Below, one piece after another: positions 3,042 to 25,505 of a DNA stretch of 26,613 nucleotides. The DNA comes from a virus. The stretch spans positions 1-26,613 of the IMG/VR virus record IMGVR_UViG_3300044301_005320, one strand, 5' to 3'. Numbering within the stretch: position 1 is the stretch's first letter; the number at the start of each line of letters is the position of its first letter. The position numbers and the translations under genes are program-made. The notes below the pieces were generated by a model, which ran no database searches, was not told the DNA's origin, and saw nothing but the letters and a program-made list of their open reading frames with translations.

Positions 3042-3085
3042 GAGAATTTTTCAAGAATCCAGAAAAAAGTGTAACTTAGAGAGTA

Positions 3086-3370: not shown

Positions 3371-3900
3371 ACTTCCTCTAAGGGGATATTATACTTAGAG
3401 TAAGGCAGAAACCAATGCTCACAAGATTGAAGAACATCTTTTAGTAAAACCATTGACATCATATCTTTTCTTCCTTTGCGCCGATACCCTTTATAGAGGC
3501 ATTCATCCACTCTATTTACAGTGTCTCTTAGGTCACATTTTTCTTTAGCTAGATTAAATAGGTCTACATTTTTAGCGTGAAGAAAAAAAGCCCCTAAATC
3601 AAAAGCTATCCACAAAGGGGTTCCGTTTTCATTGCACCATCCCGTCTTTCCATTAACATTTAAAAACTCCAGTAGGATTTTACCTTCACGGGTTGAGTTT
3701 TTTAATCCTTTTAAATCAACAGTTTCACCGTTTACTACAAAGTCTACATGACCTATGTCTTGGTTTTTCCCCGTCTTTTTAATAGTTAAACCCGCACAAA
3801 GGCACGAATGATGATATCTCTCCGTAGATTCATCCATTAATTTTTGAGTATGGGCTACATGTGTAGAACCCGATAAACCCTTCGCCTTATCTGATATCAT
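3367..3900 (-). CDS. PD-(D/E)XK-like nuclease
   Basis: A 177-residue protein whose centre matches the core of restriction-endonuclease-like folds. HVDFVVNGETVDLKGLKN (residues 51-68) gives D53 on one strand and the D-x-K pair D62/K64 on the next. ILLEFLNVNGKTGW and LWIAFDLG then follow as further strands. 'VD.K....(8-12)...LLEF.NV.G..GW' is a pattern I know from hypothetical aquatic phage proteins. The likely activity is metal-dependent DNA cleavage, such as resolving, repair or host DNA attack; the target cannot be told. Three cysteines lie near residues 33-35 and 89. It has its own promoter (3908-3935) with no room for a ribosome site, so its mRNA is probably leaderless. Fold assignment is inference from motifs. 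Confidence 0.6.
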   Translation of the reverse strand: MISDKAKGLSGSTHVAHTQKLMDESTERYHHSCLCAGLTIKKTGKNQDIGHVDFVVNGETVDLKGLKNSTREGKILLEFLNVNGKTGWCNENGTPLWIAFDLGAFFLHAKNVDLFNLAKEKCDLRDTVNRVDECLYKGYRRKGRKDMMSMVLLKDVLQSCEHWFLPYSKYNIPLEEV

Positions 3901-3907
3901 TAATTAC

Positions 3908-3935
3908 AGTATATAAGAATAATTGATTAAGGCAA
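3908..3935 (-). promoter_or_regulatory. Promoter of the nuclease gene, predicted leaderless
   Basis: Minus-strand -35 TTGCCT (3930-3935), 16-nt spacer, -10 TATACT (3908-3913). The ATG of the nuclease gene (3898-3900) begins only 7 nt after the -10 box, where transcription should start, so the mRNA would begin at or within a base or two of the start codon. Confidence 0.65.
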
Positions 3936-3949
3936 CACTAATATACGCC

Positions 3950-3977
3950 AAAACCCCCACCCCGCGCAGGATGGGGG
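3950..3977 (-). terminator. Rho-independent terminator after the 4002-4193 gene
   Basis: On the minus strand a 9-bp stem CCCCCATCC/GGGTGGGGG (one T-G pair) closes a 6-nt loop TGCGCG and is followed by TTTT. It is the most GC-rich spot in the area. It ends the transcript that carries the pyrophosphatase gene and insulates it from the nuclease promoter just downstream. Confidence 0.75.
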
Positions 3978-4001
3978 AATGTCTAGGGAATAATCCGTAG
4001 A

Positions 4002-4193
4002 TTAGTCCGTAGATTTCTGCTTGGCTTTCCCAATGTTTAACGCAGCCCAGTCAATAATTTTGTAGACTTTAGACCACAAAGACCCCTCTTTAGGGGTTGG
4101 GGTGGCAGCAGCAACGGCAGATGCAAAAGCAATTGCGGCTGCTACTACGCCAAACCAAGGGTTATCTTGAACTAGTTGAAGAATAGTGTCCAT
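4002..4193 (-). CDS. Small single-span membrane protein, possible holin-like
   Basis: A 63-residue protein: short amphipathic N-terminus (MDTILQLVQDNPWFG), one Ala-rich span (VVAAAIAFASAVAAAT, about 16-31), then a basic C-terminal half (KEGSLWSKVYKIIDWAALNIGKAKQK). The 'QDNPWFGVVAAAIA.ASA.AA.TPTP' pattern is one I associate with small membrane proteins of aquatic phages. A lysis-related role is possible, but the clearer holin candidate is at 6492-6809. It is the last gene before the terminator at 3950-3977 and follows the pyrophosphatase gene by 14 bp. Function is uncertain. Confidence 0.6.
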   Translation of the reverse strand: MDTILQLVQDNPWFGVVAAAIAFASAVAAATPTPKEGSLWSKVYKIIDWAALNIGKAKQKSTD

Positions 4194-4207
4194 ACTTCTA
4201 TTTACAC

Positions 4208-4810
4208 CTAATCAGGTTGAACTATGTAACTTTTATCTTTAATTCTTTGCCACATTTGACGCTCTGACCATTCATTATGGAGTCTTTCTTGGGTAAAATT
4301 TAACCACCTTTCGTGAGAATCTTTTAAGGCTGAATCAGCCTTTTGTTTACCTACCCACTTGCCGACTTCTGTTTCAGAGTTTCTGTCAATTTTGTATATC
4401 TTAAAGAATTCCCTAAAAATTTTGAGATGTTCTGGCTCAATATCAGCTAATGTTTTATATTTTTCTTTTGGTGACCAGTCTGGAACTGCTATGAGCTTAT
4501 TATCAATCTTGCCGCCATCTACAAACCCAAGAACACCTAGCGCCCTACAGGAAACTAGGACTCCTCTATCAATAGGGTCATGGTTAAATACCAATACATC
4601 TAAAGGATCATCATCAAGTGCAATAGTCTGTGGAATAAAACCGTAATTAATAGGATATTGGAGAGATGAAACTAGACACCTATCTAATTTAAATATATTT
4701 AAATTCTCATCATACTCATATTTTGTATTAGTCCCTTTAGGAATCTCAATAATACAATTTACATGTTCATAATCATCTGATGTGATAGGTATGTCATTTA
4801 CAAGATTCAT
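4208..4810 (-). CDS. ppa: Inorganic pyrophosphatase (family I)
   Basis: A 200-residue soluble enzyme that hydrolyses pyrophosphate to two phosphates and so pulls DNA and RNA synthesis forward. Essentially every active-site position of family I enzymes can be found at the spacing of the E. coli protein: E22 and K30/E32, R44, Y56 (YPINYGFIP), the DDDPLDVLV loop with D66, D68 and D71, D98 and D103 in VDGGKIDNKLIAVP, and K105. GKWVGKQKA supplies the later Trp/Lys region. It is longer than the E. coli enzyme (175) because of a C-terminal extension rich in Trp and charged residues. The ATG overlaps the stop of the small basic protein gene as ATGA. Pyrophosphatases are uncommon in phages. Here it sits with nucleotide-pool genes such as dCMP deaminase and MazG-like protein. 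Confidence 0.92.
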   Translation of the reverse strand: MNLVNDIPITSDDYEHVNCIIEIPKGTNTKYEYDENLNIFKLDRCLVSSLQYPINYGFIPQTIALDDDPLDVLVFNHDPIDRGVLVSCRALGVLGFVDGGKIDNKLIAVPDWSPKEKYKTLADIEPEHLKIFREFFKIYKIDRNSETEVGKWVGKQKADSALKDSHERWLNFTQERLHNEWSERQMWQRIKDKSYIVQPD

Positions 4811-4947
4811 TTCATTCTACCTTGACCTCTATATTTTTTCTTATAAAGCTTGCTAGATTTATTATTAGTATGCTTACTCTTAGAGTGAACACCTTTATTT
4901 CGAACTCTTTTTTTGAGAGAGTATGATGATGTGGATTTTTTAGCCAT
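4807..4947 (-). CDS. Small, very basic conserved phage protein (46 aa)
   Basis: A 46-residue frame from ATG 4945-4947 to TGA 4807-4809. It begins MAKKSTSSYSLKKRVRNKGV and ends KKKYRGQGRMK. About a third of residues are Lys or Arg. The 'SSYSL+K+V+.KG.H.K......S..Y.K.Y+GQGR' pattern is one I recognise from small proteins of large aquatic phages and some algal viruses, where no role is established; nucleic-acid binding is a fair guess from charge. The stop overlaps the pyrophosphatase ATG (ATGA), and the ATG lies 3 bp after the upstream gene's stop, which supports it as a real gene despite its size. Confidence 0.8.
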   Translation of the reverse strand: MAKKSTSSYSLKKRVRNKGVHSKSKHTNNKSSKLYKKKYRGQGRMK

Positions 4948-4950
4948 ATT

Positions 4951-5241
4951 TTAAAGTAAAACGTAAGTGGGGGCAATATCTTCTAGTTCGTCACACAACC
5001 TTTCAATTTCAGTTCTATCCATTTCCTCGCTAAAACTTTTTAGTTTGCTAACTTCCCAGCAGAACTTTTGATATTCACTACTCTGCATTCTTTTTTCCTT
5101 GGTTTGATTATCATGGATAAAAGCATCAAAGACTTCATATCTAGTAGGATCAATACACTTTTCAATAGGGTCAAAAACAGAATGACCCACAACATAATTG
5201 AAGATATCCTCTCTTCTTATCTTGATCTTAAGCTTGTCCAT
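4951..5241 (-). CDS. Unknown 96-aa protein
   Basis: A 96-residue charged, helical protein: MDKLKIKIRREDIFNYVVGH at the start, several Glu/Lys-rich helices in the middle, and an acidic C-terminus (RLCDELEDIAPTYVLL). No membrane span or signal. It is the first gene of the short operon that continues with the basic protein, pyrophosphatase and small membrane protein, ending at the terminator 3950-3977. A TATAAT box ends 6 nt before the ATG, so this gene appears to be read from a leaderless start. No family is recognised. Confidence 0.65.
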   Translation of the reverse strand: MDKLKIKIRREDIFNYVVGHSVFDPIEKCIDPTRYEVFDAFIHDNQTKEKRMQSSEYQKFCWEVSKLKSFSEEMDRTEIERLCDELEDIAPTYVLL

Positions 5242-5247
5242 TGACCT

Positions 5248-5275
5248 ATTATATAGGAAACAATAGCTTAATCTA
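5248..5275 (-). promoter_or_regulatory. Promoter of the pyrophosphatase operon, predicted leaderless
   Basis: Minus-strand -10 TATAAT (5248-5253) ends 6 nt before ATG 5239-5241. With the 16-nt spacer seen at other promoters here, the -35 position (5270-5275) reads TAGATT, a weak match. The -10 lies just past the endolysin stop codon, so this operon can be expressed apart from the lysis genes. Confidence 0.5.
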
Positions 5276-5893: not shown

Positions 5894-6495
5894 CTACACC
5901 TCCTACTAAATGATGCACACACTGACATTACAATCGAAAGAACAACCGTTAAAATCATAAAATTTCTGTATTCATCTATTCTGCAATATAAGTCCTCAGA
6001 CTTTCTTTCATTATAATACATCTTAGTATCCATAATATTATTGATAGCCTCGATAGTTGGATCGGTCATTGTATACATGTGAGGAATGGAAGCTTTAATA
6101 CTATTAACGTCTTCTTTATTTCCCCACTCGATCAACTGACTAACATAAGAGCTTATTTTCTTCTCTTGCTCAAAAACAAAATCTGCATACTCAGTCTCAT
6201 CGGGAGTAATATCTTTCTTGTATCCCTCTAGATATTCATCTTTATTTGCGCTTTCCTCCTCTAGAACCTCAACCATTTCACTAGGAGATATAATACCGTG
6301 GGAAGTTTTTATCACAGAATCTACAATAATTACACCATACCAATCAAAGCACATTCCAATCTCCATGATAGAGGATTCTGATTGGCGAGCATTTTCTGCT
6401 AGGGTATTATTTATATCTTCTGTAAGAGTTGTTCCTCTCCAGCCAAACGTTAAACAAATTGCCGCTAGGCAATAAACTATGAACTTGGGTCTCAT
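5890..6495 (-). CDS. Two-span membrane protein in the lysis cassette
   Basis: A 201-residue protein with hydrophobic segments at both ends: residues 6-20 (IVYCLAAICLTFGW) and about 177-194 (FMILTVVLSIVMSVCASF), followed by RRCR. Between them lies a polar, Glu-rich, largely helical stretch of about 150 residues that would sit in the periplasm. The gene is sandwiched between holin and endolysin with 4-bp overlaps on both sides, so a lysis role is likely. The layout recalls single-protein spanins, which have an outer-membrane lipid anchor at the N-terminus and a C-terminal inner-membrane span, but the possible lipobox LAAIC has Ile at -1 and is not canonical. It could equally be an antiholin or lysis regulator. 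No family is recognised. Confidence 0.65.
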   Translation of the reverse strand: MRPKFIVYCLAAICLTFGWRGTTLTEDINNTLAENARQSESSIMEIGMCFDWYGVIIVDSVIKTSHGIISPSEMVEVLEEESANKDEYLEGYKKDITPDETEYADFVFEQEKKISSYVSQLIEWGNKEDVNSIKASIPHMYTMTDPTIEAINNIMDTKMYYNERKSEDLYCRIDEYRNFMILTVVLSIVMSVCASFSRRCR

Positions 6496-6809
6496 TTTTT
6501 AATAAATTTTTCTGGGTTTTTAGCAAACCTTTCCCCTAATTTAACGATACCACTAATCACCTCTGGGCTAACCACACCAATAATACCATAAGTAATAGCT
6601 TTCGTAAGGGAAGATACATCAGTTTGTTCTAAAATAAACCAAGCTACACCAGCAGCAATAGCTGCTGTTAATATTCGTTTTAACTGCTGTTTACACGATA
6701 GTTCATTGTCGCCCGACAAAAGCCTAGCCAACATCGCAGCAGCACCCACCAGCGGGACTAACCATCCTCCGTTAAGAAACTCCTTTAAAATAGACTTTTC
6801 GGGTTCCAT
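6492..6809 (-). CDS. Putative holin
   Basis: A 105-residue protein with three hydrophobic segments: GWLVPLVGAAAMLARLL (about 15-31), a central Ala-rich span ILTAAIAAGVAWFIL (46-60), and ITYGIIGVVSPEVISGIV (72-89). A basic C-terminal tail follows (KLGERFAKNPEKFIKK). Length, span number and tail match three-span phage holins, which open the inner membrane at a set time. The position two genes upstream of the CHAP endolysin supports this. Its ATG is preceded by the terminator at 6833-6863. A weak TAAATA box lies 7 nt before the ATG, so it may have its own weak promoter or depend on read-through from the upstream gene. Confidence 0.7.
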   Translation of the reverse strand: MEPEKSILKEFLNGGWLVPLVGAAAMLARLLSGDNELSCKQQLKRILTAAIAAGVAWFILEQTDVSSLTKAITYGIIGVVSPEVISGIVKLGERFAKNPEKFIKK

Positions 6810-6832
6810 GTTTCTTTATTTACACTGAATAC

Positions 6833-6863
6833 AAAAAAAGCCTCCCCAAAAAGGGAGGCTTTT
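6833..6863 (-). terminator. Rho-independent terminator after the outer-membrane protein gene
   Basis: A perfect 11-bp stem (AAAAGCCTCCC with GGGAGGCTTTT) around a 6-nt loop, followed on the minus strand by a run of seven T (6839 down to 6833). It closes the single-gene unit 6889-7578 and separates it from the holin/endolysin genes. The A-tract upstream would let it work weakly in the other direction too. Confidence 0.85.
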
Positions 6864-6888
6864 CTTATTATTTGTTGGGGGGTTACAA

Positions 6889-7578
6889 TCAGAATTTGTA
6901 GTTAAACCCTGCACCTACGACCCAATCGTTGTCGAGAGAGTAGGCAGATCCATCTACATCATTGTGGTTATAAGAAACTTTTGCACCTACAGAAAGGTTG
7001 TTACCGAAATCATAATCGGCAGAAACTCCAACCTCTACTGCGTTGTAATCGTTAGCGATATTTGCGGAAACAAATGGACTAACAGTGAGATTATCTACTG
7101 GAGTAGCAAAATCCCGCGAAACAGTAATTTCAACTCCATAGGAAGCATCAGTTCCAAGCTCATGCCAGAAACTAGCAGTCAAATCTGCCCATTCATGAGA
7201 ATAGGTAAGACCTAGACCAGCTTCCTCCCAGCCACCATAAGAGGATTCAATTTGCTGGAGATAAATCTCTGCGTCAATTGATTGGCCCAGAATGGTTACT
7301 GGACGCGCCCAAGAAATCGAAAGATCAGTGTCAGTGCCTCCGTCAGCATCGTAAATATCAACGCCGACCGAAGCAACCCCACCTTCAAACGAAGTGCCGA
7401 GAAGCACAGAGTAACCCAGAGAATCCTCCCTGACAGCTAAACCTCCACTAGTGGAAAGATTGCTGTAAGAAACGCTAGCGTCCACAGAAATGTTTTCTGC
7501 GAGATCTTCAGCGTTAACACCCGCGCTACCAATGGCAACGCCCAACATTGTTACAAGACTAAACAGTAATGTCTTCAT
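6889..7578 (-). CDS. Outer-membrane beta-barrel protein
   Basis: A 229-residue protein with a signal peptide (MKTLLFSLVTMLGVAIGSAG, then VNA|ED as likely cleavage). The rest is alternating hydrophobic/polar strands ending in the outer-membrane sorting signature GAGFNYKF with C-terminal Phe. Strand-like stretches such as SVDASVSYSN, VASVGVDIYDAD, AGLGLTYSHEW and SVGAKVSYNHN suggest an eight- to ten-strand barrel. It should be inserted into the host outer membrane by the BAM machinery. The barrel resembles bacterial outer-membrane proteins of about this size, and it may have been taken from a host. The gene is a self-contained unit with its own strong promoter (7587-7614) and terminator (6833-6863), typical of genes expressed apart from the lytic cascade. 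Possible roles are receptor masking or change of surface permeability; neither is shown. Confidence 0.8.
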   Translation of the reverse strand: MKTLLFSLVTMLGVAIGSAGVNAEDLAENISVDASVSYSNLSTSGGLAVREDSLGYSVLLGTSFEGGVASVGVDIYDADGGTDTDLSISWARPVTILGQSIDAEIYLQQIESSYGGWEEAGLGLTYSHEWADLTASFWHELGTDASYGVEITVSRDFATPVDNLTVSPFVSANIANDYNAVEVGVSADYDFGNNLSVGAKVSYNHNDVDGSAYSLDNDWVVGAGFNYKF

Positions 7579-7586
7579 ATTTATCT

Positions 7587-7614
7587 ATTATCCAAATTTT
7601 TGACTGGTTGTCAA
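7587..7614 (-). promoter_or_regulatory. Strong promoter of the outer-membrane protein gene, leaderless, with dyad
   Basis: Minus-strand -35 TTGACA (7609-7614), 16-nt spacer, -10 GATAAT (7587-7592). The ATG at 7576-7578 begins 8 nt after the -10 box, so the mRNA would start within one or two bases of the start codon. A perfect inverted repeat TTGAC-N5-GTCAA covers the -35 box (7600-7614) and could bind a regulator. Confidence 0.75.
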
Positions 7615-7629
7615 CTCAATTTTACACAT

Positions 7630-8592
7630 TTACTTTAAAGAGTCGCGGTAAAAATCCCGCATTTCGCGCATATTAGTGATATTTACCCCAGCTTTGTCTG
7701 ATTCAATCACTAGATCAAATGTGCTTGAGGCTTTGAAAGTCTCTCCTGTGGGTAGTTTTATTAACCCCCCCTTATTATCTGACATTTGCCCATCTATCTT
7801 GATTAGACAGTTATGCCACCAACGCACTTTATCTAAGTTAAGAAGGTTTTCTGTGTGACGGGGGCATATATTACGAATATTAATTCCGCGAGGATTATAA
7901 GTGCATACTAGAGGAATTGCAGTTAATTCTGACTCGTAGTTTTCAATTGTTACTTGGTGCGCGTCACCCCAAACAACACCATACTCGCAGTTATGAGCGG
8001 TTATGTTTTCTAAACGAATAGATAAAACCCTTCTTTCGCCAAGCTCAAAGGCGGTAGATCCTTCTCTCGCAAACGAGTCGTCACCACCCAAAGTAGCGTC
8101 ACTGAAAACATCCCTAACTGCATATGTGTCTCCCCCTAACCTGACTCCAATAGAGTTCTCCCCAAAACCACGGACAATTAAATTATATATTCCCGCAGAT
8201 TGTTGCGCTCCACGGAAGTAGACACCATTCAAGCCGTCTTTACTTTGGACATGGATTTGATTGATTCCCGCTCCGAAATTACTGTAATAAGCTCTTGAAT
8301 TAGGTTTATTCCATTTCAGAACCCAATCTCCGTCAAAATTTTCAGTAGCATAAAAACCACAACTACTACCAATATGATGTTTAGCTTTAAATTCACCATT
8401 TAATTCAACGTGACTACCTACATCAAAAGTTCTGTTTAAGGGGTAAGAATCAGTAAGCACAATTGTTCCACTTCTTTGCCTACTACCAGATCTATTTAGT
8501 TTCTTTTGTATATTTTCGAAATAACCAGTCCAATCCCCGTTAACCACTTCTGCCTCTACCTCCTCTTTAACAGGTATAACAATTTTTTTCAT
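7630..8592 (-). CDS. Right-handed beta-helix (pectate-lyase-like) protein
   Basis: A 320-residue protein whose middle has the short repeating strands of a parallel beta-helix: HVELNGEFKAKHHIG, INQIHVQSKDGLNGVYFRGA, IYNLIVRGFGENSIGVRLGG, IRLENITAHNCEYGVVW and VTIENYESE. Each turn is about 20-25 residues, with IxV/N-type inward positions. Such folds occur in phage tailspikes and in polysaccharide-degrading or -binding proteins. No catalytic triad can be assigned by eye. No signal peptide is visible, so it is probably a virion or cytoplasmic product rather than secreted. It is remote from the plus-strand tail module and follows dCMP deaminase by 26 bp, a gap that holds a perfect 20-bp AT palindrome. 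Role as depolymerase is possible but unproven. Confidence 0.65.
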   Translation of the reverse strand: MKKIVIPVKEEVEAEVVNGDWTGYFENIQKKLNRSGSRQRSGTIVLTDSYPLNRTFDVGSHVELNGEFKAKHHIGSSCGFYATENFDGDWVLKWNKPNSRAYYSNFGAGINQIHVQSKDGLNGVYFRGAQQSAGIYNLIVRGFGENSIGVRLGGDTYAVRDVFSDATLGGDDSFAREGSTAFELGERRVLSIRLENITAHNCEYGVVWGDAHQVTIENYESELTAIPLVCTYNPRGINIRNICPRHTENLLNLDKVRWWHNCLIKIDGQMSDNKGGLIKLPTGETFKASSTFDLVIESDKAGVNITNMREMRDFYRDSLK

Positions 8593-8612
8593 TTTAAAAA
8601 ATATTTTTTAAA
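8593..8612. repeat. Perfect 20-bp AT-only palindrome before a start codon
   Basis: TTT, six A, TA, six T, AAA: a perfect dyad ending directly next to the ATG (8590-8592) of the beta-helix gene. As RNA it could pair away the start region. As DNA it is a possible binding or bending site. AT-rich background makes chance possible, but 10 of 10 pairs is notable. Confidence 0.6.
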
Positions 8613-8618
8613 TATTAA

Positions 8619-9059
8619 TCAACTTAATTTTACACATTCTATGTTATAAAAGTCAAAAATCTCCAAAGCTTTCCTGTCTCGTTCATATTCCTGACCATAA
8701 ATTACCTTGGGAATGTTATAAGAGGCTATCAGGGTAGCACAGGAGGCGCAAGGTAAGAGGGTAACCGCCAGTAAACCCACTTCCCCTCTTTTTACCAAAC
8801 TCAAACAGTTAGCTTCAGCATGGATCATATATGGTCTCCTGTCTCTTCTAACTGCCCAAAAAAGTTTATCTACTTTTTTACCAGCAGCTAAACCGTTGTA
8901 ACCAACAGCCACCACCATATTTTCTTTATTTAAAGCACAAGCTCCAACCTTCATAAAGGGGTCTTCACTGCGTTGAGAAGCAGCCTTGGCTAAATCCAAG
9001 GCATATTCATCCCATGAGATCCTCTCATTAGGAGGACTATGATAAACTTTTATTGCCAT
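8619..9059 (-). CDS. dCMP deaminase (cytidine/deoxycytidylate deaminase family)
   Basis: A 146-residue zinc enzyme that converts dCMP to dUMP, feeding thymidylate synthesis. The zinc motif is complete: H80 and catalytic E82 in HAEANCLSL, and C104/C107 in PCASCATL. The region FMKVGACALNKENMVVAVGYNG is the typical substrate-side strand pair of phage and bacterial dCMP deaminases. Length fits the family (about 145-190). A second regulatory zinc-site insertion such as the one in T4 dCMP deaminase is not seen. It lies 24 bp after the lipoprotein gene and before the beta-helix gene on the same strand. Activity on free cytidine or another base cannot be excluded from sequence alone. Confidence 0.9.
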   Translation of the reverse strand: MAIKVYHSPPNERISWDEYALDLAKAASQRSEDPFMKVGACALNKENMVVAVGYNGLAAGKKVDKLFWAVRRDRRPYMIHAEANCLSLVKRGEVGLLAVTLLPCASCATLIASYNIPKVIYGQEYERDRKALEIFDFYNIECVKLS

Positions 9060-9083
9060 ATTCTAGCAACGCGACAACTATTT

Positions 9084-9441: not shown

Positions 9442-9449
9442 AATTAGTA

Positions 9450-9647
9450 TTATGTCTTTGCGTCTTTCTTGAAATTATAAATTTCTTCCTCTTCCTCTTC
9501 GTCTTCCAATACTGCCGTTACCGACCCTTGAATTTTTTTGGCGCAATCAATCGCCCAATCAAGGGAGCCATCTAGAGTTGTCCCATAGCTGTGATGGTAA
9601 TCCCCCTTACGGTTATAAACTCTGTAAAGAACTCTGTTATTTTTCAT
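9450..9647 (-). CDS. Small protein with acidic tail, unknown
   Basis: A 65-residue protein starting MKNNRVLYRVYNRKGDYHHS, with a central DWAIDCAKKIQGSVTAV segment and then a run of eight acidic residues within LEDEEEEEEI. It overlaps the upstream GNAT-like gene by 4 bp and is followed 8 bp later by the coiled-coil gene, so it is part of the 10354-to-7630 leftward unit. The fold pattern (strands, helix, strand) could be a small alpha/beta domain. No family is recognised. Confidence 0.6.
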   Translation of the reverse strand: MKNNRVLYRVYNRKGDYHHSYGTTLDGSLDWAIDCAKKIQGSVTAVLEDEEEEEEIYNFKKDAKT

Positions 9648-10354
9648 TTTTTAGGAATAAACTCAAACGCTATTCTGCCAACATTTTCTTCGTCGTCAGA
9701 AAGAAGTCCATGAACTAAAACACGGTCAGGATAAAAGTCAACCCCTTTTTCGTCAAAAAGATAAGTTTTACCCTTTAAGCTTAATTTTCTCACTACCCCA
9801 TGCTTTACCCTTTTAGTTTCCCCTAAGAGAAACTCTTCATCCATGAGGGGTTTTGTTGTTTCGTTAGCCCCAATAACTTTAAATGTAACCTTCATTGCAT
9901 CTCTATCACACCAGACAACGGTATTATTGTCATCATTAAAGATGATAGCTGTTTTGTCATATTTTTCAATCCATTTTTTGTAAGTCTTAACTTTAAAGGT
10001 TCGCCTGATTTCGCTTTTTAAATAATTTTTATTACTGTTTTTAAGAGCCTCGGAGAATATAGCGTGAGTAGCCTCAATGAGCTTAGAGCTTCGAACGCTA
10101 CGCCAAATTCCAAAAATAAAAGCCACATCCAAACAGCATTCCTCTTCTTTTATAAAAGAAAAACCCAAAAGGGTGCCATCCTTTTCGGCCTTGTAAACGC
10201 TGTAAGAGCAAAAATCCTCGAAAGATGCCTTGATTTTATTATCTCTTAAAGTTTTAGACGCAAAAGAACAAAAATCATAAGGCTTAGATTTAATACAGAA
10301 ATCATAAAAATAAGGCCACGCCTCTTTTGCCTGTTTTAGCTGTGTAATTTTCAC
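9644..10354 (-). CDS. GNAT-like protein, GTG start
   Basis: A 236-residue protein. The first 150 residues look like an acetyltransferase fold: VYKAEKDGTLLGFSFIKEEE, then LDVAFIFGIW, a helix ATHAIFSEALKNSNKN and RRTFKVKTYKKWIEKYDKTA near the end of the domain. The usual acetyl-CoA loop (Q/RxxGxG/A) is not clear, so activity is unsure. The last 80 residues form a strand-rich domain, KVTFKVIGANETTKPLM to RIAFEFIPKK, of unknown role. The start is GTG at 10352-10354; no in-frame ATG lies near. A TATAAA box ends 6 nt before this GTG, so it seems to begin a leaderless mRNA. It heads the leftward unit running to the beta-helix gene. Confidence 0.6.
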   Translation of the reverse strand: MKITQLKQAKEAWPYFYDFCIKSKPYDFCSFASKTLRDNKIKASFEDFCSYSVYKAEKDGTLLGFSFIKEEECCLDVAFIFGIWRSVRSSKLIEATHAIFSEALKNSNKNYLKSEIRRTFKVKTYKKWIEKYDKTAIIFNDDNNTVVWCDRDAMKVTFKVIGANETTKPLMDEEFLLGETKRVKHGVVRKLSLKGKTYLFDEKGVDFYPDRVLVHGLLSDDEENVGRIAFEFIPKK

Positions 10355-10360
10355 TTCTTT

Positions 10361-10388
10361 TTTATATTATATTACATTGATGTGTAAA
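10361..10388 (-). promoter_or_regulatory. Leftward promoter in the divergent gap, predicted leaderless
   Basis: Minus-strand -35 TTTACA (10383-10388), 16-nt spacer, -10 TATAAA (10361-10366), then 6 nt to GTG 10352-10354. This is the same geometry as at 3908, 5248 and 7587. The 41-bp gap between the two divergent genes holds this promoter; no equally good plus-strand promoter for the tail genes can be read there. Confidence 0.6.
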
Positions 10389-10395
10389 TTAAAAT

Positions 10396-18431: not shown

Positions 18432-18432
18432 A

Positions 18433-21400
18433 ATGGCTACTAACCCCGCACCAACAGGACTAAACGAATTAGCTAGAACTCCAAGTGGCTCCTACACTTG
18501 GACTGTTAGTGGAAACATTAATATTACTGGAGCCACTGGAGCAGGGGGCTACCTTAGAAATGACGCAGTTAATCTAGGTATTACAGGAATTGAGTTGTTT
18601 ATGGTTGCGGGTTTAACGGGGGCTGCAATTCCCACTGGAATAACTACCCCAGCCTCAAATCATTACTACGCTACAGCATCAAAGGATTGGGGAGCTGGGG
18701 TTTGGGGACCAAGAGGAAATATTGATTATACTGCCGCAGTCGGTGGTTCCGATAGTCCACTACTACCTGACACGGAATATAGATATGCTTTATGCTTTAA
18801 AACTTTGGGTGGTATTCAGGTGCTTTCAGGAAAGGCTAGGGATGGAACATCGGCCAGTGATCCTTTCTGTGAGTTTGTGTCTACCACTGTTGCTGAGTGG
18901 GATTTTGTTTCAGAATATACTATTGATCAAGATGACCTCACAACAACTGGTGAGGGAAGTGGGATTACCCATATGCCTGGAGGCTCAGTTGTAGTTAACA
19001 GTGTTTTTGTTGATAATCAGGGAAATCAAGCAGGAACCGCTGGTGCTTTTGCTGCTAGCCCAAGTCTTAGTGGTAATACTGTCAACCTGCGAGACAAAAA
19101 CAGGGAGATGGTTTATTCGGGATATAAAGAAAACCACAATAGTCCTGTTTTAGCTATTCCACAAGAAGATTTGGTTGCATATTTAGGATCACCCACTCCA
19201 AACTTTTGTGTCGAGCAAGTAGTAACAGATATAAAAAGCGGACAAAACGTGTCCTTTATGGATATCCGTGGAAATTATCCAAGGACGGTAAAAATCTGGA
19301 CAGAGGATAAAAATGGAACCAAGTTAAACGAAAGCTATAGAAACTTCGAACTCTTAGACACGGGAAACATTTCAAATGCAACCTATAGAGAAGACGCTAT
19401 AAAATTTCAAAATAACCAAGTAATAAGCGATGTCGCACACTCGGGAGGTATTATTTTAACTTTTGCTTTCGAGCCTGATCAAACAGTGGTAACTAAAAGA
19501 GAAATAAATTTATTTACAGGTGATTCGGCTGAATCGGTTAATACTGATTATACTTCATGGGCAGGAACTGTGCCTCTTAATCAAACTGAAGTAGGACAAA
19601 CTGTTAGGCTTACATCTACAGATGGATACCCCGAAGAGACAGATATATATTTTAAAGCTATAGTGGGTGGCTCCATTGGTTACTCTGAAGAAATATTTCA
19701 ATTTGGACCATGTAAGATAGCTACCATTACTGGAGCAGAAAATTTGGACATGCATACTGTTGGAAACCAAACGCTTCAGGGTAGCCTTCTAATTAAAGAC
19801 CCAGCCGATCCAACAGAGTCTACTTACGGTTTAAAAGTAACCGCCCACGACAGCGATCTTAAATTAGCAACCACTGATGGATATTCGATTGAATCGACAA
19901 CAAGATCCAGAATATCCTCTATTGATAGTGAAGGTCATTCGACAGCGACAGCCCTCTTAGGTGGGTCAGGAAATCTCATAACAGGAAACTATAATGTAAT
20001 TGCGGGAGGAGCAACAGCAACAATATCAGGGGGAGATTATTGCTTTATTGGGGGAGGCTCTGGTGTTGATATCACAGGAAGTAATTATTCCTCAAGTGTT
20101 GGGGGGTATAATAATGATGTTAAAAAAAGCGACTATTCTGTTATAGCGGGGGGGTATAGTAATCAAGTAAATGATAATTGCAATACTTCTATAATTGGAG
20201 GCGGTTATACGAACCAAATTAGCGGAACTAGTAATGCTTGTATTATAGCAGGAGGATACGGAAATAAGATTTCAGGAGCTGATGGATCAGCAATTGGTGG
20301 AGGATCAAATAATACAATCCAGAATGCTAGTGTAGCCTTCATTGGCGCAGGAGGAACTAATGTTATAGAAAAAGGTTCTACATACTCCCTAATAGCAGGT
20401 GGGTTAGCACATAAAGTTTCAGGAACAAATTCTGCCATATTGGGAGGTTCATATGCTGCCGTAAGTGGTGATTATTGTATAGCGGGTGGCCGAAAAGCTC
20501 ACATTCCTAAAGATGTAGATGGTGCTCTAGTTTTAGCAGACGGTCAAGATCGCAGCCATATATCTAGCGGAGATAACACCGCCCTTCTTGATTATGCTGC
20601 GGGAACTTACGTTACTTCTACTGGCTTCTTTAATCATCTTCATGTAAGTGGAGTTCCTGTGGGAACTGGTGGGGGAGGAGGAACCCAGACACTACAAAGT
20701 GTCTGTGATAACGGTAGCACAACCACAACATCTGTTACTATCGGTGATGATCTAATCGTAAATACTGATACTTTGTTAGTTGATGTTTCTAATGACAATG
20801 TGGGTATTGGAACACAAGCTAACGACAATTTTGATTTACAAATTTATAGTGCAGGTGCTGCTGCTAATGCTAGGGGCGCTAATTTAAGTTTGGTGACCAT
20901 TAATAATAATGAAACAGGATCAAAAATAAGATTTACTGAAAGCACTTCAAATTTCCAAGGGGCTTACTTGCACTATGATGGAAACTCAAATGGATTTAAC
21001 ATTGGTGTGCATGAAAACGCTAATACTACTTTATCAGACGATATAGATGTTATATCAATTGATAGAGCAAGCGCTAAACTATCAGTGGCAGGAGATCTTT
21101 CTGGCTCTGCTAGCTTCTTAGGAACGGGCATTGGAAATAGAATCACAAACAACCATGTCCCTTATTTACTATCGGGAGACGTAACAATCTCTGAATTAGG
21201 ACTTGGAACTGCCGCGACAAAGGATGTAGGGATTAGTAATAACAACGTTATACAAGCAAACAGCACACTTGTTGATAATGATTTCTTAAGAATAGATGGC
21301 ACACAAGTAGAGGGAAGATCGGCATCAGAAGTCCTGTCGGATATTGGGGGACAAGCTTCACTTACGTTTGGTATATCAAATACAAACGCAGTAAAGATTG

Positions 21401-23547
21401 ACAGCGCAGACGTTGCTGATGACGAATATGCGAGATTTACATCTGACGGTTTAGAAAGCAGGTCTACTTCAGAAGTGCTTTCGGATATCGGAGCGCAAGC
21501 TTCGCTTACCTTTGGTATATCAAATACCAATGCAGTCAAAATAGATAGCGCGTCAGTAGCTGACGATGAATACGCTAGGTTTACAGCTAATGGTTTAGAA
21601 AGCCGCTCTACTTCTGAGGTCAAAAGCGATATAGGTTTAAGTAGTAATGATTCTCCCACTTTTAATGGGTTAAAATCAACGGGCGCAGCTGGTATATCGG
21701 GTGGAGCTAACTTTATTGGGACTGGAATAGGTAACAGGATCACAGCCGAAAACGGTAAAGTTTATCTTATTTCTGGAGATGTCACTACATCTGAACTAGG
21801 GCTTGGCACTGCTGCTACAAAGGACGTAGGTATTAGCAATAATAATGTCATCCAAGCAAACAGCACACTTGTTGATAACGATTTTCTCCGCATAGACGGA
21901 ACTCAAGTAGAAGGTAGATCGGCATCAGAAGTTCTTTCAGACATTGGAGGACAGGCTTCACTTACCTTCGGAATAGCAAACACAAACGCTGTTAAAATTG
22001 ACAGCGCAGACGTTGCTGACGATGAATACGCACGGTTTACTGCTGACGGTTTAGAGAGCCGTTCAACATCTGAGGTTCTTAGTGACATCGGGGCGCAAGC
22101 CTCGCTGACCTTCGGGATCTCAAACACGAATGCTGTAAAGATCGACAGCGCTTCAGTAGCAGATGATGAATACGCAAGATTTACCGCTAACGGCTTAGAG
22201 AGTAGATCTACTTCAGAAGTAAAAAGTGATATAGGTTTGTCATCAAATGATTCTCCAACTTTTAATGGATTAAAATCCACGGGTGCAGCAGGAATTTCGG
22301 GAGGAGCAAACTTTATTGGAACTGGGGTAGGCAACAGGATTACAACAGAGAACGGAAAAGTTTATTTAGTATCAGGTGACGCACAAGGCCCACTGACGTT
22401 TGGTATTTCAGACACGAACGCTGTTAAAATCGACAGCGCGACCGTAGCCGATAACGAATACGCTAGATTTACTGCTGATGGATTAGAGAGTCGCTCTACT
22501 TCTGAAGTTTTGTCTGACATTGGAGGGGTTGCTGATGGAGGCTCTCCGACTTTCGATAGTATCTATCTTCAAAACACAATTTATCATGATGGAGATACAG
22601 ACACTCGTATAGATGTTAGCGCGGATACAATCCAACTTGCTACAGCAGGAACTACAGCACTTACAGTAGCTTCAAACAGCAATGTCGGTATAGGAACAGC
22701 AACTCCCAACGCTGCATATAAACTCCATACGCAGGGACTTTCCTATGCAACAGGAATGGTTGTAGGAGGCGGTATCGCAGGGCAAAGCCCTTCTCAAAAC
22801 GGATTAATAGTCGAAGGAAAGGCGGCAGTGGGTTATTATTCAACCAATAGCACACTGGGAGTATATGGGAACGCTAGTGTGGGAACATCTTACATAGGCA
22901 GTGCCGCGCCTTCTAATGGATTAATAGTGCAGGGAAGCGTGGGTATAGGAACAGCCTCTCCCAACGCTGCATACGAACTCCATACGCATGGACTTAGCTA
23001 TGCAACAGGTGCGGTTATAGGAGGTAGTTACGCAGGGCAAAGCCCTCCTGAAAACGGATTAGCCATAGAGGGGAATACAGCAATAGGATATTATACAACC
23101 AGTAATAACTTAGGGATATATGGGAGCGCTAGCGTGGGGACATCTTATATAAGCACCTCCGCGCCTTCTAATGGTCTAATAGTTCAAGGAAATGTTGGGG
23201 TTGGAACTCAATCGCCAGCAACTGCCCTTGAGGTCAATGGGGCAATAAAAGGTGGAGTAAATGTTTCCGATAAAAGTGCTGATTTTACTTTAGGATCAAG
23301 TGATAATGGAAACTTTGTTAACGGGACATCTGCTTCATTCGATCAAATATCAATCTCTAGTGATTTAGGTTCAAACTTTAACTGTTCTGTAATGCATCCA
23401 ACATCAGATGTAGAAATTACTGGCTCCAGTAGTATGATTATTAATGGCGTGACAAATGGCATTGTGACTTTAGCATCTGGATATCAACCAGCTTCTATAG
23501 TTAGAATTGCATCCAACAGTTATGCAGTATTTGGTAATTTATTATGA
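18433..23547 (+). CDS. Giant repeat-containing tail fibre / adhesin
   Basis: A 1704-residue fibre directly downstream of gene J. Parts in order: an N-terminal region with FN3-like strands (about 1-490, probably the tail attachment side); a beta-roll of YadA-head type (about 508-685), with many short turns of the form IAGGYSNQ, IIGGGYTN, AIGGGSNN; then a linker with VGIGTQAND. Two tandem 200-residue units follow (from about 921), each with two 48-residue sub-repeats around TNAVKIDSA, plus a third partial unit. Next come two and a half 85-residue VGIGTA.PNAAY.LHT units (from about 1418). The C-terminal domain (about 1620-1704) is a small beta-sandwich often found at fibre ends. No S74 chaperone-protease domain is present although VGIGT repeats usually come with one. 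The stop overlaps the next ATG as ATGA. Confidence 0.85.
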   Translation: MATNPAPTGLNELARTPSGSYTWTVSGNINITGATGAGGYLRNDAVNLGITGIELFMVAGLTGAAIPTGITTPASNHYYATASKDWGAGVWGPRGNIDYTAAVGGSDSPLLPDTEYRYALCFKTLGGIQVLSGKARDGTSASDPFCEFVSTTVAEWDFVSEYTIDQDDLTTTGEGSGITHMPGGSVVVNSVFVDNQGNQAGTAGAFAASPSLSGNTVNLRDKNREMVYSGYKENHNSPVLAIPQEDLVAYLGSPTPNFCVEQVVTDIKSGQNVSFMDIRGNYPRTVKIWTEDKNGTKLNESYRNFELLDTGNISNATYREDAIKFQNNQVISDVAHSGGIILTFAFEPDQTVVTKREINLFTGDSAESVNTDYTSWAGTVPLNQTEVGQTVRLTSTDGYPEETDIYFKAIVGGSIGYSEEIFQFGPCKIATITGAENLDMHTVGNQTLQGSLLIKDPADPTESTYGLKVTAHDSDLKLATTDGYSIESTTRSRISSIDSEGHSTATALLGGSGNLITGNYNVIAGGATATISGGDYCFIGGGSGVDITGSNYSSSVGGYNNDVKKSDYSVIAGGYSNQVNDNCNTSIIGGGYTNQISGTSNACIIAGGYGNKISGADGSAIGGGSNNTIQNASVAFIGAGGTNVIEKGSTYSLIAGGLAHKVSGTNSAILGGSYAAVSGDYCIAGGRKAHIPKDVDGALVLADGQDRSHISSGDNTALLDYAAGTYVTSTGFFNHLHVSGVPVGTGGGGGTQTLQSVCDNGSTTTTSVTIGDDLIVNTDTLLVDVSNDNVGIGTQANDNFDLQIYSAGAAANARGANLSLVTINNNETGSKIRFTESTSNFQGAYLHYDGNSNGFNIGVHENANTTLSDDIDVISIDRASAKLSVAGDLSGSASFLGTGIGNRITNNHVPYLLSGDVTISELGLGTAATKDVGISNNNVIQANSTLVDNDFLRIDGTQVEGRSASEVLSDIGGQASLTFGISNTNAVKIDSADVADDEYARFTSDGLESRSTSEVLSDIGAQASLTFGISNTNAVKIDSASVADDEYARFTANGLESRSTSEVKSDIGLSSNDSPTFNGLKSTGAAGISGGANFIGTGIGNRITAENGKVYLISGDVTTSELGLGTAATKDVGISNNNVIQANSTLVDNDFLRIDGTQVEGRSASEVLSDIGGQASLTFGIANTNAVKIDSADVADDEYARFTADGLESRSTSEVLSDIGAQASLTFGISNTNAVKIDSASVADDEYARFTANGLESRSTSEVKSDIGLSSNDSPTFNGLKSTGAAGISGGANFIGTGVGNRITTENGKVYLVSGDAQGPLTFGISDTNAVKIDSATVADNEYARFTADGLESRSTSEVLSDIGGVADGGSPTFDSIYLQNTIYHDGDTDTRIDVSADTIQLATAGTTALTVASNSNVGIGTATPNAAYKLHTQGLSYATGMVVGGGIAGQSPSQNGLIVEGKAAVGYYSTNSTLGVYGNASVGTSYIGSAAPSNGLIVQGSVGIGTASPNAAYELHTHGLSYATGAVIGGSYAGQSPPENGLAIEGNTAIGYYTTSNNLGIYGSASVGTSYISTSAPSNGLIVQGNVGVGTQSPATALEVNGAIKGGVNVSDKSADFTLGSSDNGNFVNGTSASFDQISISSDLGSNFNCSVMHPTSDVEITGSSSMIINGVTNGIVTLASGYQPASIVRIASNSYAVFGNLL
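19955..20500 (+). repeat. YadA-head-like beta-roll repeats in the fibre gene
   Basis: About a dozen degenerate protein repeats of 13-17 residues built on (I/S)xxGGxxNxISG, e.g. VIAGGYSNQV, SIIGGGYTNQISG, IIAGGYGNKISG and AIGGGSNNTI. The Gly-Gly turns and alternating Ile/Ser indicate a left-handed parallel beta-roll, a trimeric adhesin fold. At DNA level the repeats are much less alike. Confidence 0.7.
21193..21792 (+). repeat. Fibre tandem repeat, unit A (600 bp)
   Basis: First of two adjoining units of exactly 600 bp (200 codons), beginning ELGLGTAATKDVGISNN. It contains two 144-bp sub-repeats starting at 21352 and 21496 (QASLTFGIS and following). Compared with unit B, only two residues differ over the first roughly 170, but 12 of the first 20 codons differ, all silently. 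Confidence 0.9.
21793..22392 (+). repeat. Fibre tandem repeat, unit B (600 bp), plus partial third copy to about 22530
   Basis: Second unit, exactly 600 bp after unit A, with sub-repeats at 21952 and 22096. It uses different codons for the same protein, including CGC and CGG for Arg where unit A uses AGA. From about 22318 a third, shorter copy begins (TGVGNRIT, then PLTFGISDTNAVKIDSA) and ends near 22530. Confidence 0.9.
22684..23193 (+). repeat. Two 255-bp VGIGT repeats in the fibre gene
   Basis: Units at 22684-22938 and 22939-23193, 85 codons each, followed by a truncated third start (VGVGTQSPATALEVNG) at 23194. Unlike the 600-bp repeats, these share long stretches of identical DNA while differing more in protein, so the two arrays have different histories. 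Confidence 0.85.
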
Positions 23548-24506
23548 TTATAAGACCCTCAATGTCGGGGATATTTCAGAGGAATGTTATCCCTCCTCTT
23601 GACATAAGTGGAATGCCAACTGCTAGGCTGGCATACAGCTTAAGAAAACTCCGCGCTGACTATACTGGTTATGCGTTGAGAGCAAGGAACTCAAGCGGAA
23701 CCGAAGCAGATGTTGCGTTTTATAACGGTAAAGAAGTTACCAGCGAAAGCATGACAAGTGCGGGTTCAACTCTTAGGGATTTTGCAGGAGGCGGCAACGT
23801 TACAGTCCCCAAATGGTATAATCAAAGCGGTAATACCAGCACACAGGCTGGAGGTTCCCCTTGGAGTGGTTATCCTACTGCGCCAGATGCAGCTCAAACT
23901 ACATCAAGTAAGCAGCCCGTTCTAATAATATCAGGCACTAAAACTAAACTAGCTTTAAAATTTGAAACATCAGGGGGTTGGAGCGCACATGGTGATTTTT
24001 TTCTAGTAGACGAATACAGACTACCTAACTCCGCTCCCGATGCTTTTACTTTTGGTTGGGCTGGAGAGTTCCAGAATTTTAGTAACCACATGGGCATCAT
24101 TAGTGATATAGATAATTTTAATGACGGGGTTGAATTGATTTTTCTCTCACCTAACGGGTTTAGGTTTTCTATAGACGCTCATGATTTAGATACAAGTGGA
24201 TCTGTAGGCAATCCAGAAGACAGGATTTTAGTTATTGCTTCTTATGACTACTCTAGGGCGACTGGCGCTGGAGGAGATGGAAAATCTCAAATAATTAGAA
24301 TTGACAGCACCGAAAGCACCAAAGACACATACGAGGATAAGCATATAGGAAGGGACGATAGATTTAGAATTGGAGTAAGAAAAATCTCCAACAGCCCTTT
24401 TGATGGCACCATGAGAGAAGTAATTGTATGGGAAAGCCAACTTTCTGACGCTCTGCAAGTGGAGTTAGAAAGAAACATGGCAATCTATAACCAAGTTGAT
24501 TTGTAA
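23544..24506 (+). CDS. Concanavalin/arabinofuranosidase-like tail-associated protein
   Basis: A 320-residue protein. Residues 27-125 match the opening of the arabinofuranosidase-B catalytic-like domain seen in many phage tail proteins: AYSLRKLRADYTGYALRARN, VAFYNG and VPKWYNQSGN. The rest is a jelly-roll lectin-like fold (QPVLIISGTKTKLALKFETS, FTFGWAGEF, FDGTMREVIVWESQLS) ending in the helix common to LamG-type phage proteins. It is likely to bind or cleave surface polysaccharide. Catalytic residues cannot be confirmed by eye, and many phage copies are probably binding modules only. It overlaps the fibre gene by 4 bp and its TAA overlaps the next start (TAATG), so it belongs to the tail-fibre transcript. 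Confidence 0.75.
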   Translation: MIIRPSMSGIFQRNVIPPLDISGMPTARLAYSLRKLRADYTGYALRARNSSGTEADVAFYNGKEVTSESMTSAGSTLRDFAGGGNVTVPKWYNQSGNTSTQAGGSPWSGYPTAPDAAQTTSSKQPVLIISGTKTKLALKFETSGGWSAHGDFFLVDEYRLPNSAPDAFTFGWAGEFQNFSNHMGIISDIDNFNDGVELIFLSPNGFRFSIDAHDLDTSGSVGNPEDRILVIASYDYSRATGAGGDGKSQIIRIDSTESTKDTYEDKHIGRDDRFRIGVRKISNSPFDGTMREVIVWESQLSDALQVELERNMAIYNQVDL

Positions 24507-24799
24507 TGAGATATTTAAAATTCGAAAATATTGATGGTGCCGAACAAAGAAGTAGGGAGCTTTGGGAAGAGAAACTGGGGCGACCTAAGAAGCAAGAAGA
24601 TGAAACAGAATTTATGTATGCTTGGGAAATATCTGAAAGCAGTGAAGGAGGATCGTATCTCTTAATAGAGGACGATGGCATGATTCTCAGTGATGAAGAA
24701 AAGCTGGCTCTAGAACCAGAGCAGTCTTATCAAGACTGGCGCGAACAATATCAGCCAGAATCAGTTCAAGAAGAAAGAGAAGAGGATGGAAACTTGTAG
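24506..24799 (+). CDS. Small acidic protein after the fibre genes, unknown
   Basis: A 97-residue highly acidic protein, MRYLKFENIDGAEQRSRELW at the start, with SYLLIEDDGMILSDEEK in the middle and a Glu-rich end (VQEEREEDGNL). Short strand-helix-strand patterning is visible, with no membrane span. Its position directly after fibre and lectin-like genes, with TAATG coupling, suggests a fibre assembly factor or a small virion protein. No family is recognised. Confidence 0.6.
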   Translation: MRYLKFENIDGAEQRSRELWEEKLGRPKKQEDETEFMYAWEISESSEGGSYLLIEDDGMILSDEEKLALEPEQSYQDWREQYQPESVQEEREEDGNL

Positions 24800-24814
24800 C
24801 ATATTAATTATAAT
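24787..24814 (+). promoter_or_regulatory. Promoter of the glycosyltransferase-like gene, predicted leaderless
   Basis: Plus-strand -35 TGGAAA (24787-24792, 4 of 6 matches), 16-nt spacer, -10 TATAAT (24809-24814), then 7 nt to ATG 24822. An ATG at 24815 inside that gap stops after four codons. The geometry matches the minus-strand promoters, so this gene can be read apart from the tail genes. Confidence 0.55.
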
Positions 24815-24821
24815 ATGAACG

Positions 24822-25505
24822 ATGCTTGATTATGTATTCCTGACCCCTATAGGGAATGGGATTTCTGGGAAACTATTCCCCCAATATTTAAAGTTGCAGT
24901 CTTGGTGTGACCAAAACAATTCTGCTATCATGACTTGTCATGGATTCTTTTTGAACTTCGCAAGAAACTATTTGGCCACAGGAGGAAAGGGTTTTGCTGA
25001 TACCACCCCACCAGATTCAGAGTGGCTTTTTTGGATTGATTCAGACATCAGTTTTTCCATAGAGCAAATAGAAATGTTAATTAATATACCTTCTGAACAT
25101 AAGTTTGTAACAGGATGGTATAGATCAAATTATTCTGATCAAGCCATGCTTGGATACTGGGACGAAGATTTTTTTAAGCATAACCATTATATGCCTTTCG
25201 CTTCAGTAAATTGGCTGACAGAGTTAGGCGAAAAAACCCCTAATAAATTGGTGCAGGTAGACTGGTGTGGTTTTGGATTTACCAAAATTCACCGATCTGT
25301 CTTTGAGAAAATGGAATATCCTTATTTTCCTTTAAATCACGTAGATATAAAAGACTGCGATGATCCAAAAGGTGGTAAATTCCACATGAAAGACTTAAGC
25401 TTTGAAGATGTTAGTTTTTGCATGAACTGTTACGAACAAACAGCGATTAAACCATTAGTCGTCCCGCGACTTAGAATGATGCACTACAAATCTTTCTTGG
25501 TTTGA
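24822..25505 (+). CDS. Glycosyltransferase-like protein (GT-A fold)
   Basis: A 227-residue protein with a GT-A-like layout. It has an N-terminal strand VFLTPIGN, a helix with FLNFARNYLA (nucleotide-sugar site in related proteins) and WLFWIDSDISFS (about residues 68-79), where DSD is the metal-binding DxD. TGWYRSN, QVDWCGFGFTKIHRSVFEKM and a C-terminal DVSFCMNCYEQT helix follow, with VPRLRMMHYK at the end. Many viruses carry similar single-domain enzymes. Possible targets are phage DNA bases, virion glycans or host O-antigen. It is the last plus-strand gene and faces the minus-strand operon, overlapping its last gene by 22 bp. It has its own promoter-like sequence upstream. Confidence 0.75.
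   Translation: MLDYVFLTPIGNGISGKLFPQYLKLQSWCDQNNSAIMTCHGFFLNFARNYLATGGKGFADTTPPDSEWLFWIDSDISFSIEQIEMLINIPSEHKFVTGWYRSNYSDQAMLGYWDEDFFKHNHYMPFASVNWLTELGEKTPNKLVQVDWCGFGFTKIHRSVFEKMEYPYFPLNHVDIKDCDDPKGGKFHMKDLSFEDVSFCMNCYEQTAIKPLVVPRLRMMHYKSFLV

Follow-up and report, generated by a model that had tools for sequence, protein, structure and literature searches.

Where does transcription begin when a promoter lies almost against the start codon of its gene? This question is raised by IMG/VR virus record IMGVR_UViG_3300044301_005320, a stretch of 26,613 nucleotides (nt) that is called here, at its full length, the window. At five genes of the window, each the first of an operon, a first-pass annotation placed a sigma70-type -10 box only 6-8 nt before the start codon, with a -35 position separated from it by 16 nt, and proposed that the mRNAs have no leader. 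When the sites were read again, the distance from the -10 box to the start and the 16-nt spacer were exactly as described at all five (Table 1). Sigma70 RNA polymerase initiates about 7 nt after the -10 box. With gaps of 5-9 nt, the 5' end of the RNA and the start codon would thus be no more than about 3 nt apart. Judged from the sequences of the window and its relatives, it is quite probable that many first-in-operon genes of this phage lineage are leaderless, with start-adjacent promoters of two classes, the late one probably read by a phage sigma factor.

Within the window by itself, TATAAT-N5-8-ATG is not above chance: 3 copies are present, and shuffled sequences have 2.17 on average. The test therefore had to come from relatives, and the first-pass annotation was right to remark that its case depends on the pattern. 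Six related contigs were added (G001, 104 kb; G009, 44 kb; G010, 26 kb; G012, 31 kb; G002, 109 kb; G004, 107 kb). Genes were called with a simple coding model, the start being the ATG that lies farthest upstream without overlap with the neighbouring gene, and promoters were not consulted. For the window, G010, and G012, pooled training of the coding model was used, because a single short contig led to too sparse calls. After similar upstream regions were removed, the window and the six relatives give a non-redundant set of 156 regions upstream of operon heads (the first genes of operons). This set contains 38 sigma70-type promoters at a gap of 5-9 nt, where 2.6 are expected, and no excess is found at longer gaps (5 versus 6.9 at 10-19 nt, and 15 versus 17.1 at 20-50 nt). 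A comparison upstream of first genes in related phages had been suggested at the outset, and start-adjacent promoters are strongly enriched in it. With the full promoter score and all heads, gap 5-9 has 23 promoters versus 1.25 expected in the close relatives and 38 versus 1.65 in the distant ones, with nothing above chance at 10-50 nt in either group; note that the counts from related genomes are not independent and the non-redundant figures are those to trust.

The -10-like hexamers at heads peak at gaps of 6-8 nt in the close relatives and 5-7 nt in the distant ones, and inner genes of operons have no such peak at these gaps. Among 57 heads picked by the -10 box alone, TTG is found at a spacer of 16 nt in 26 and of 17 nt in 14, never at 13-15 nt, and once each at 18 and 19 nt. 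The 16-nt spacer, which had been put forward as a rule, is the commonest one across the relatives, followed by 17 nt. A start-blind count of TATAATN5-9ATG over whole contigs shows a modest excess over the reversed pattern; start-aware counts were used instead. The genes at heads of the sigma70 class are mostly small (median 124 versus 287 amino acids) and include those for a clamp loader and a nucleotide-sugar epimerase. In G002 (28700-33400) and in parts of G004, successive small genes have similar promoters with TTGC or TTGAC, 17 nt, TATAGT, and 5-6 nt to ATG. These genes are perhaps an immediate-early cluster.

Phages of other groups were used as controls. T5, with a matching G+C content of 0.39, has no promoter at gap 5-9 and 14 versus 4.2 expected at 20-50 nt, and 84% of its heads have a Shine-Dalgarno sequence. 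T4 is like T5 in the start-adjacent test. Phages of SAR11, SAR116, Ruegeria, and Agrobacterium have no peak at gap 5-9, with one site at most; a single site was counted in the one Thermus phage that was included. In the three large relatives a Shine-Dalgarno sequence is found at 5-26% of heads. With a match of at least 4 nt, it is found at 3 of 61 heads of the predicted leaderless class versus about 15-22% of the other heads. Inner genes had been thought to rely on translational coupling. Overlap of stop and start codons is indeed used by them, but some have a Shine-Dalgarno sequence (about 20-28%) and some have a further element, GTGTAA, described below.

Orthologues of the window genes were found by tblastn and their upstream regions were read. 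All five sites recur in relatives. Orthologues of the outer-membrane protein gene (6889-7578), with 39-93% protein identity, keep TTGAC., a spacer of 16 or 17 nt, and a gap of 6-8 nt, and the sequence between the boxes changes. Orthologues of gene 24822-25505 in G002, G004, and G009 (63-74% identity) have TTAACT, TTGATA, and TGGATA, respectively, a spacer of 16 nt, and TATAAT at gap 6. For gene 4951-5241, TATAAT at gap 6 is kept in G010, G009, and G004 (58-100% protein identity). The -35 boxes of 5241 and 24822, conceded to be weak from the beginning, are weak in the window indeed, and that of 5241 is weak in most orthologues too; a 40%-identical copy of 5241 in G001 has TTGACA-16-TACTAT-8. 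The promoter proposed for gene 9644-10354 holds only in part. Its -10 is sound, because G001 and G009 have TATAAT in the same register at gap 6, but its "-35" overlaps the conserved GTGTAA of the divergent gene 10396-12507. The start of gene 9644-10354 is GTG or ATG at the same place among the relatives.

Another line of evidence comes from gene 3367-3900, which has no PHROG or Pfam match. Seventy-odd homologues of this gene were collected, and 48 loci were sampled for upstream clusters. In codons 2-15 the differences are 0.22, 0.15, and 0.58 at codon positions 1, 2, and 3, while in the 42 nt upstream they are 0.69, 0.68, and 0.65, close to unrelated sequence. The codon pattern from the first codons and the flat pattern upstream indicate that the called start is right. 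The homologues have 17 unrelated upstream clusters. Eleven of these are preceded by a terminator, and nearly all of the eleven have the promoter geometry. A conserved gene with the same geometry in unrelated upstream regions implies that the promoters were acquired separately or remade. In a clade of 54% identity the homologue is operon-internal, its ATG overlaps the previous stop codon, and there is no -10 box.

A second start-adjacent element is found at heads lacking a sigma70 promoter. The first-pass annotation had a single promoter type in view; its sigma70 class stands, but this second class was missed. When hexamers were counted 4-14 nt upstream in these heads, GTGTAA was the most enriched (26 versus 0.4 expected), and near starts overall it is found 44 times versus 0.93 expected. 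GTGTAA is located 8-11 nt before the start, mostly 8-10 nt. The consensus from 62 unrelated upstream regions is GTGTAAWT with A/T-rich flanks and no -35. Several copies directly follow a terminator. Genes behind GTGTAA encode the tape measure, a protein with a weak portal match, minor tail protein L, and virion structural proteins. At the starts of T5, T4, and the marine phages tested, GTGTAA is absent, save one copy in Agrobacterium phage Atu_ph07. The T4 late promoter is described as lacking a -35 and having a TATA box about one turn upstream of the start, followed by A/T-rich DNA (PMC2988020). Given an initiation distance of the T4 late type, GTGTAAWT at the distance seen would also place the 5' end near the start codon.

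A candidate for reading this element is found in the three largest relatives. Each of G001 (4232-4936), G002, and G004 has a gene whose product, about 230 amino acids long, matches Sigma70 region 2 (Pfam Sigma70_r2, PF04542) above the cut-off. The gene lies outside the window fragment, and the protein has no PHROG match. In Foldseek searches of the PDB, the best matches of its predicted model are mainly cellular sigma factors of the extracytoplasmic function (ECF) type, with probability up to 1.0, and the model has C-terminal helices and, weakly, Foldseek matches to a -35-binding domain of a sigma factor. A profile search of the family against solved structures gave weak unrelated matches only. 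In carriers of this sigma, down to less than 50% identity, GTGTAA is the top start-adjacent hexamer (gap 8-10), and in a small group of carriers at 50-59% identity GTGTAA is weak. This association suggests that the phage ECF-like sigma reads GTGTAA. Genes of this sigma-like family abound in viral contigs, at more than 400 loci at the least. Most members have a cysteine-bearing linker, which is partly lost in some.

The proposed mechanism is as follows. At many independently promoted genes, synthesis of the RNA would start on the start codon itself or only a few nt away. Such an mRNA would have no Shine-Dalgarno leader, and the ribosome would recognise its 5' AUG or GUG directly. In the first class (mostly small, replication, or accessory genes), a promoter of the host sigma70 type (TTGnnn, 16 or 17 nt, TATAAT, 5-9 nt to the start) would be used. 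In the second class (mostly structural genes), the -10-only element GTGTAAWT, with its hexamer 8-11 nt before the start, would be a late promoter, read by the core polymerase of the host together with the ECF-like sigma that the phage encodes. Leaderless transcription from start-adjacent promoters at operon heads, as proposed in the first-pass annotation, is supported by the statistics of the relatives, the controls, and the conservation in orthologues, all of them readings of sequence. A wider claim is that the lineage is widespread and expresses most of its independently promoted genes leaderless throughout infection, via two sigma factors with a similar start distance and GTGTAAWT as the late element. 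This wider claim is only slightly favoured.

Several observations weigh against this mechanism. Of the heads in the three large relatives, between about one third and two fifths have no scored signal of any kind. The genes for the ribonucleotide reductase small subunit and PhoH, which are not obviously late, are also found behind GTGTAA. GTGTAA precedes 17 inner genes versus 0.9 expected, which a pure operon-head promoter does not predict; internal late promoters would explain it. The model of the sigma-like protein has a mean predicted local distance difference test score (pLDDT) of 77 with a low predicted template modelling score (pTM, 0.42), its Foldseek E-values are 5e-3 or worse, and no Sigma70_r4 (PF04545) match was found in the protein. 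Finally, in clade L046-L053 of gene 3367-3900 the best promoter match is at gap 12. This clade keeps the terminator and TTGCTA, has no TATAAT near the start, and carries a conserved ttcttttgtc-like stretch before the ATG, possibly as a promoter with a short leader.

Could the five sites have arisen by chance? AT-rich upstream regions give TATAAT-like boxes near ATG, from which five might have been picked, and the lack of enrichment in the window alone (3 versus 2.17) and the two weak -35 boxes among the five agree with this. Chance is hardly credible, however, with 38 promoters versus 2.6 in the non-redundant heads and none above chance elsewhere, TTG almost only at spacers of 16 and 17 nt, no excess in T5 and T4 of similar G+C, and the geometry conserved in orthologues. 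It is also very unlikely that the promoters are real and the true starts lie further downstream, which would leave ordinary leaders. The simple rule of the farthest upstream ATG could misplace some starts, but the control phages have no peak under the identical rule. In addition, gene 3367-3900 has a coding substitution pattern from codon 2 and a flat one upstream, the same ATG overlaps the preceding stop codon in its operon-internal clade, and gene 9644-10354 swaps GTG and ATG at one place.

The other two alternatives concern GTGTAA, and each is unlikely to a lesser degree. GTGTAA might be a signal for translation or mRNA processing. It would then be natural to see it in front of 17 inner genes where 0.9 are expected, in many cases immediately behind the stop codon of the gene before. 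Yet GTGTAA does not match the consensus of a Shine-Dalgarno sequence, and several copies come immediately after a terminator, at places that call for a fresh promoter. Its A/T flanks without a -35 resemble the T4 late promoters described. It is also present in carriers of the sigma gene and practically absent in the control phages. If GTGTAA is a promoter, it might still be read by an alternative sigma of the host, a reading to which we give a small share, since GTGTAA and the phage sigma are linked by association only. Against a host sigma, GTGTAA still ranks first among start-adjacent hexamers in carriers of a sigma with less than 50% identity, and structural genes make up most of the class, which is what one expects if it is a late regulon of the phage. 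Start-adjacent promoters of two classes, with the late one probably under the phage sigma, are thus the reading preferred here.

Table 1. Predicted promoters, putative late elements, and genes of the window.
Position	Strand	Feature	Details
3069..3085	+	Putative late element of gene 3086-3370	GTGTAA (3069-3074), 11 nt to ATG; conserved in G010, G009, G012, distantly in G002
3367-3900	-	Gene, function not assigned	Start backed by codon-position substitution pattern; sigma70-type leaderless class (predicted)
3901..3935	-	Promoter of gene 3367-3900	TTGCCT (3935-3930), 16 nt, TATACT (3913-3908), 7 nt to ATG
4194..4207	-	Putative late element of gene 4002-4193	GTGTAA (4207-4202), 8 nt to ATG; kept in G010, G009, G012
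4208-4810		Inorganic pyrophosphatase gene, phage-encoded	PF00719, 157 bits
4951-5241	-	Gene, function not assigned	Sigma70-type leaderless class (predicted)
5242..5275	-	Promoter of gene 4951-5241	Weak TAGATT (5275-5270), 16 nt, TATAAT (5253-5248), 6 nt to ATG
6810..6825	-	Putative late element of gene 6492-6809	GTGTAA (6825-6820), 10 nt to ATG, just behind terminator; conserved in G010, G001, G009, G002, G012
6836..6863	-	Terminator of gene 6889-7578	Strong hairpin, T run on both strands; followed by late element of gene 6492-6809
6889-7578	-	Outer-membrane protein gene, MipA-like	PF06629, 28.4 bits versus cut-off 24.2; sigma70-type leaderless class (predicted)
7579..7614	-	Promoter of gene 6889-7578	TTGACA (7614-7609), 16 nt, GATAAT (7592-7587), 8 nt to ATG
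9644-10354	-	Gene, function not assigned	GTG start; sigma70-type leaderless class (predicted)
10355..10388	-	Promoter of gene 9644-10354	Putative -35 TTTACA (10388-10383), 16 nt, TATAAA (10366-10361), 6 nt to GTG
10382..10395	+	Putative late element of gene 10396-12507	GTGTAA (10382-10387), 8 nt to ATG; gap 8 kept in G010, G009, G012, G001
10396-12507	+	Minor tail protein L gene	PF05100, 140.7 bits; phrog_18; late class (predicted)
12452-12892		Weak JAB-domain match	Tail module
12889-13518		Gene at position of lambda tail gene I	No assignment
13518-18431		Host-specificity protein J gene	Tail module
24787..24821	+	Promoter of gene 24822-25505	TGGAAA (24787-24792), 16 nt, TATAAT (24809-24814), 7 nt to ATG
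24822-25505	+	Gene, phrog_1574	Weak similarity to glycosyltransferase family; sigma70-type leaderless class (predicted)

The right half of the window has a lambda-like tail module, indicating a siphovirus, and contigs with genes common to the window reach 104-109 kb. The window belongs, as a fragment, to an uncultured siphovirus lineage whose relatives reach about 105 kb. Judging by the kind of records involved, this lineage is probably marine. Its terminase, DnaE-type polymerase, and ribonucleotide reductase are far from those of cultured phages, and the lineage genes that were tested gave no close relatives among cultured phages. The sigma-like protein and the protein of gene 3367-3900 have no relative among cultured phages. 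The large subunit of ribonucleotide reductase is nearest to that of alphaproteobacterial phages, but there is no leaderless peak in the alphaproteobacterial phages tested, and for this reason no host is named here. In a host search among 84,980 genomes, no relative of the outer-membrane protein or of the pyrophosphatase (the latter searched by peptide patterns) was found.

Some other features of the window are worth recording. The outer-membrane protein gene was considered as a recent addition, and this idea was dropped, as distant relatives have orthologues of 39-49% identity with the same promoter geometry. Near its promoter, the 3' end of a deaminase gene (TGTGTAAAATTAAGTTGA, 7600-7625) is repeated as TGTGTAAAATTGAGTTGA (8619-8640) just downstream of gene 7630-8592. 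In G010 (L110) the promoter of the outer-membrane gene seems to follow immediately upon the deaminase end. Therefore, gene 7630-8592 looks inserted, flanked by a short direct repeat. The fibre protein (18433-23547, 1704 amino acids) has long internal near-repeats at 21200-22540, the copies of which differ largely at synonymous positions. A tRNA-Leu(UAA) at 209-285 (minus strand) has only 77 nt and is without the long variable arm that a tRNA-Leu of bacteria normally has; it is either a shortened phage tRNA or one with a misassigned identity. The HNH endonuclease encoded at 726-1241 (PF13392), which also has an AP2 match below the threshold, is likely a homing endonuclease.

If the mechanism is true, the host is predicted to translate leaderless mRNA well, and annotation tools that expect a Shine-Dalgarno sequence will misplace starts in these genomes. 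The GTGTAA motif and the sigma family would allow gene timing to be read in uncultured phages. With a fixed distance between promoter and ATG, any gene transferred together with about 40 base pairs of upstream sequence would be self-sufficient for its expression, and the many unrelated upstream regions of gene 3367-3900 agree with this. Neither late promoters of the GTGTAA kind nor a marine phage lineage so organised turned up in the literature, of which subscription papers were mostly outside our coverage. Within the literature covered, genome-scale leaderless expression in phages is so far documented for a Thermus phage. If confirmed here, it would extend to a common viral lineage with both host-type and phage-specific promoters.

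How does the lineage compare with known systems? T5-type siphoviruses are likewise tailed, about 105-120 kb in size, and rich in sigma70 promoters. Their promoters, however, are found 20-50 nt upstream and are combined with Shine-Dalgarno sequences, unlike the start-adjacent promoters of the lineage. In lambda the leaderless transcript is that of cI from PRM. Lambda is credited with the first described leaderless phage mRNA (PMC3160421) and has one such gene, whereas dozens per genome are predicted in the lineage. Leaderless genes are widespread in bacteria, most of all in Actinobacteria and Deinococcus-Thermus, and "TA-led" bacterial genes have a TATAAT or TANNNT -10 box about 10 base pairs before the start and no Shine-Dalgarno sequence (PMC3160421, PMC12340547). 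These "TA-led" genes are cellular, while the lineage is a phage with a clear -35 at 16 or 17 nt and a second, phage-specific element.

The T4 late promoters with gp55 are similar to the GTGTAA class in being -10-only and A/T-flanked without a -35, and probably also in serving a late regulon and in the use of a small phage sigma (PMC2988020). They differ in having a TATA box instead of GTGTAAWT, and the sigma of the lineage looks ECF-like, with a possible region 4, and the placement of the GTGTAA elements is predicted to be leaderless. The putative late system of the lineage may work like that of T4 but is not counted as a member of it, as homology to gp55 was not found. Another example of leaderless expression is found in the Thermus phage phiYS40, in which most middle and late transcripts are reported to be leaderless and this class is linked to changed levels of the initiation factors IF2 and IF3 (PMC3594737). 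Both phiYS40 and the lineage have many leaderless mRNAs, predicted ones in the latter. In phiYS40 the leaderless class is middle and late; in the lineage a presumably early sigma70-type class is also start-adjacent, and the putative late element is GTGTAA.

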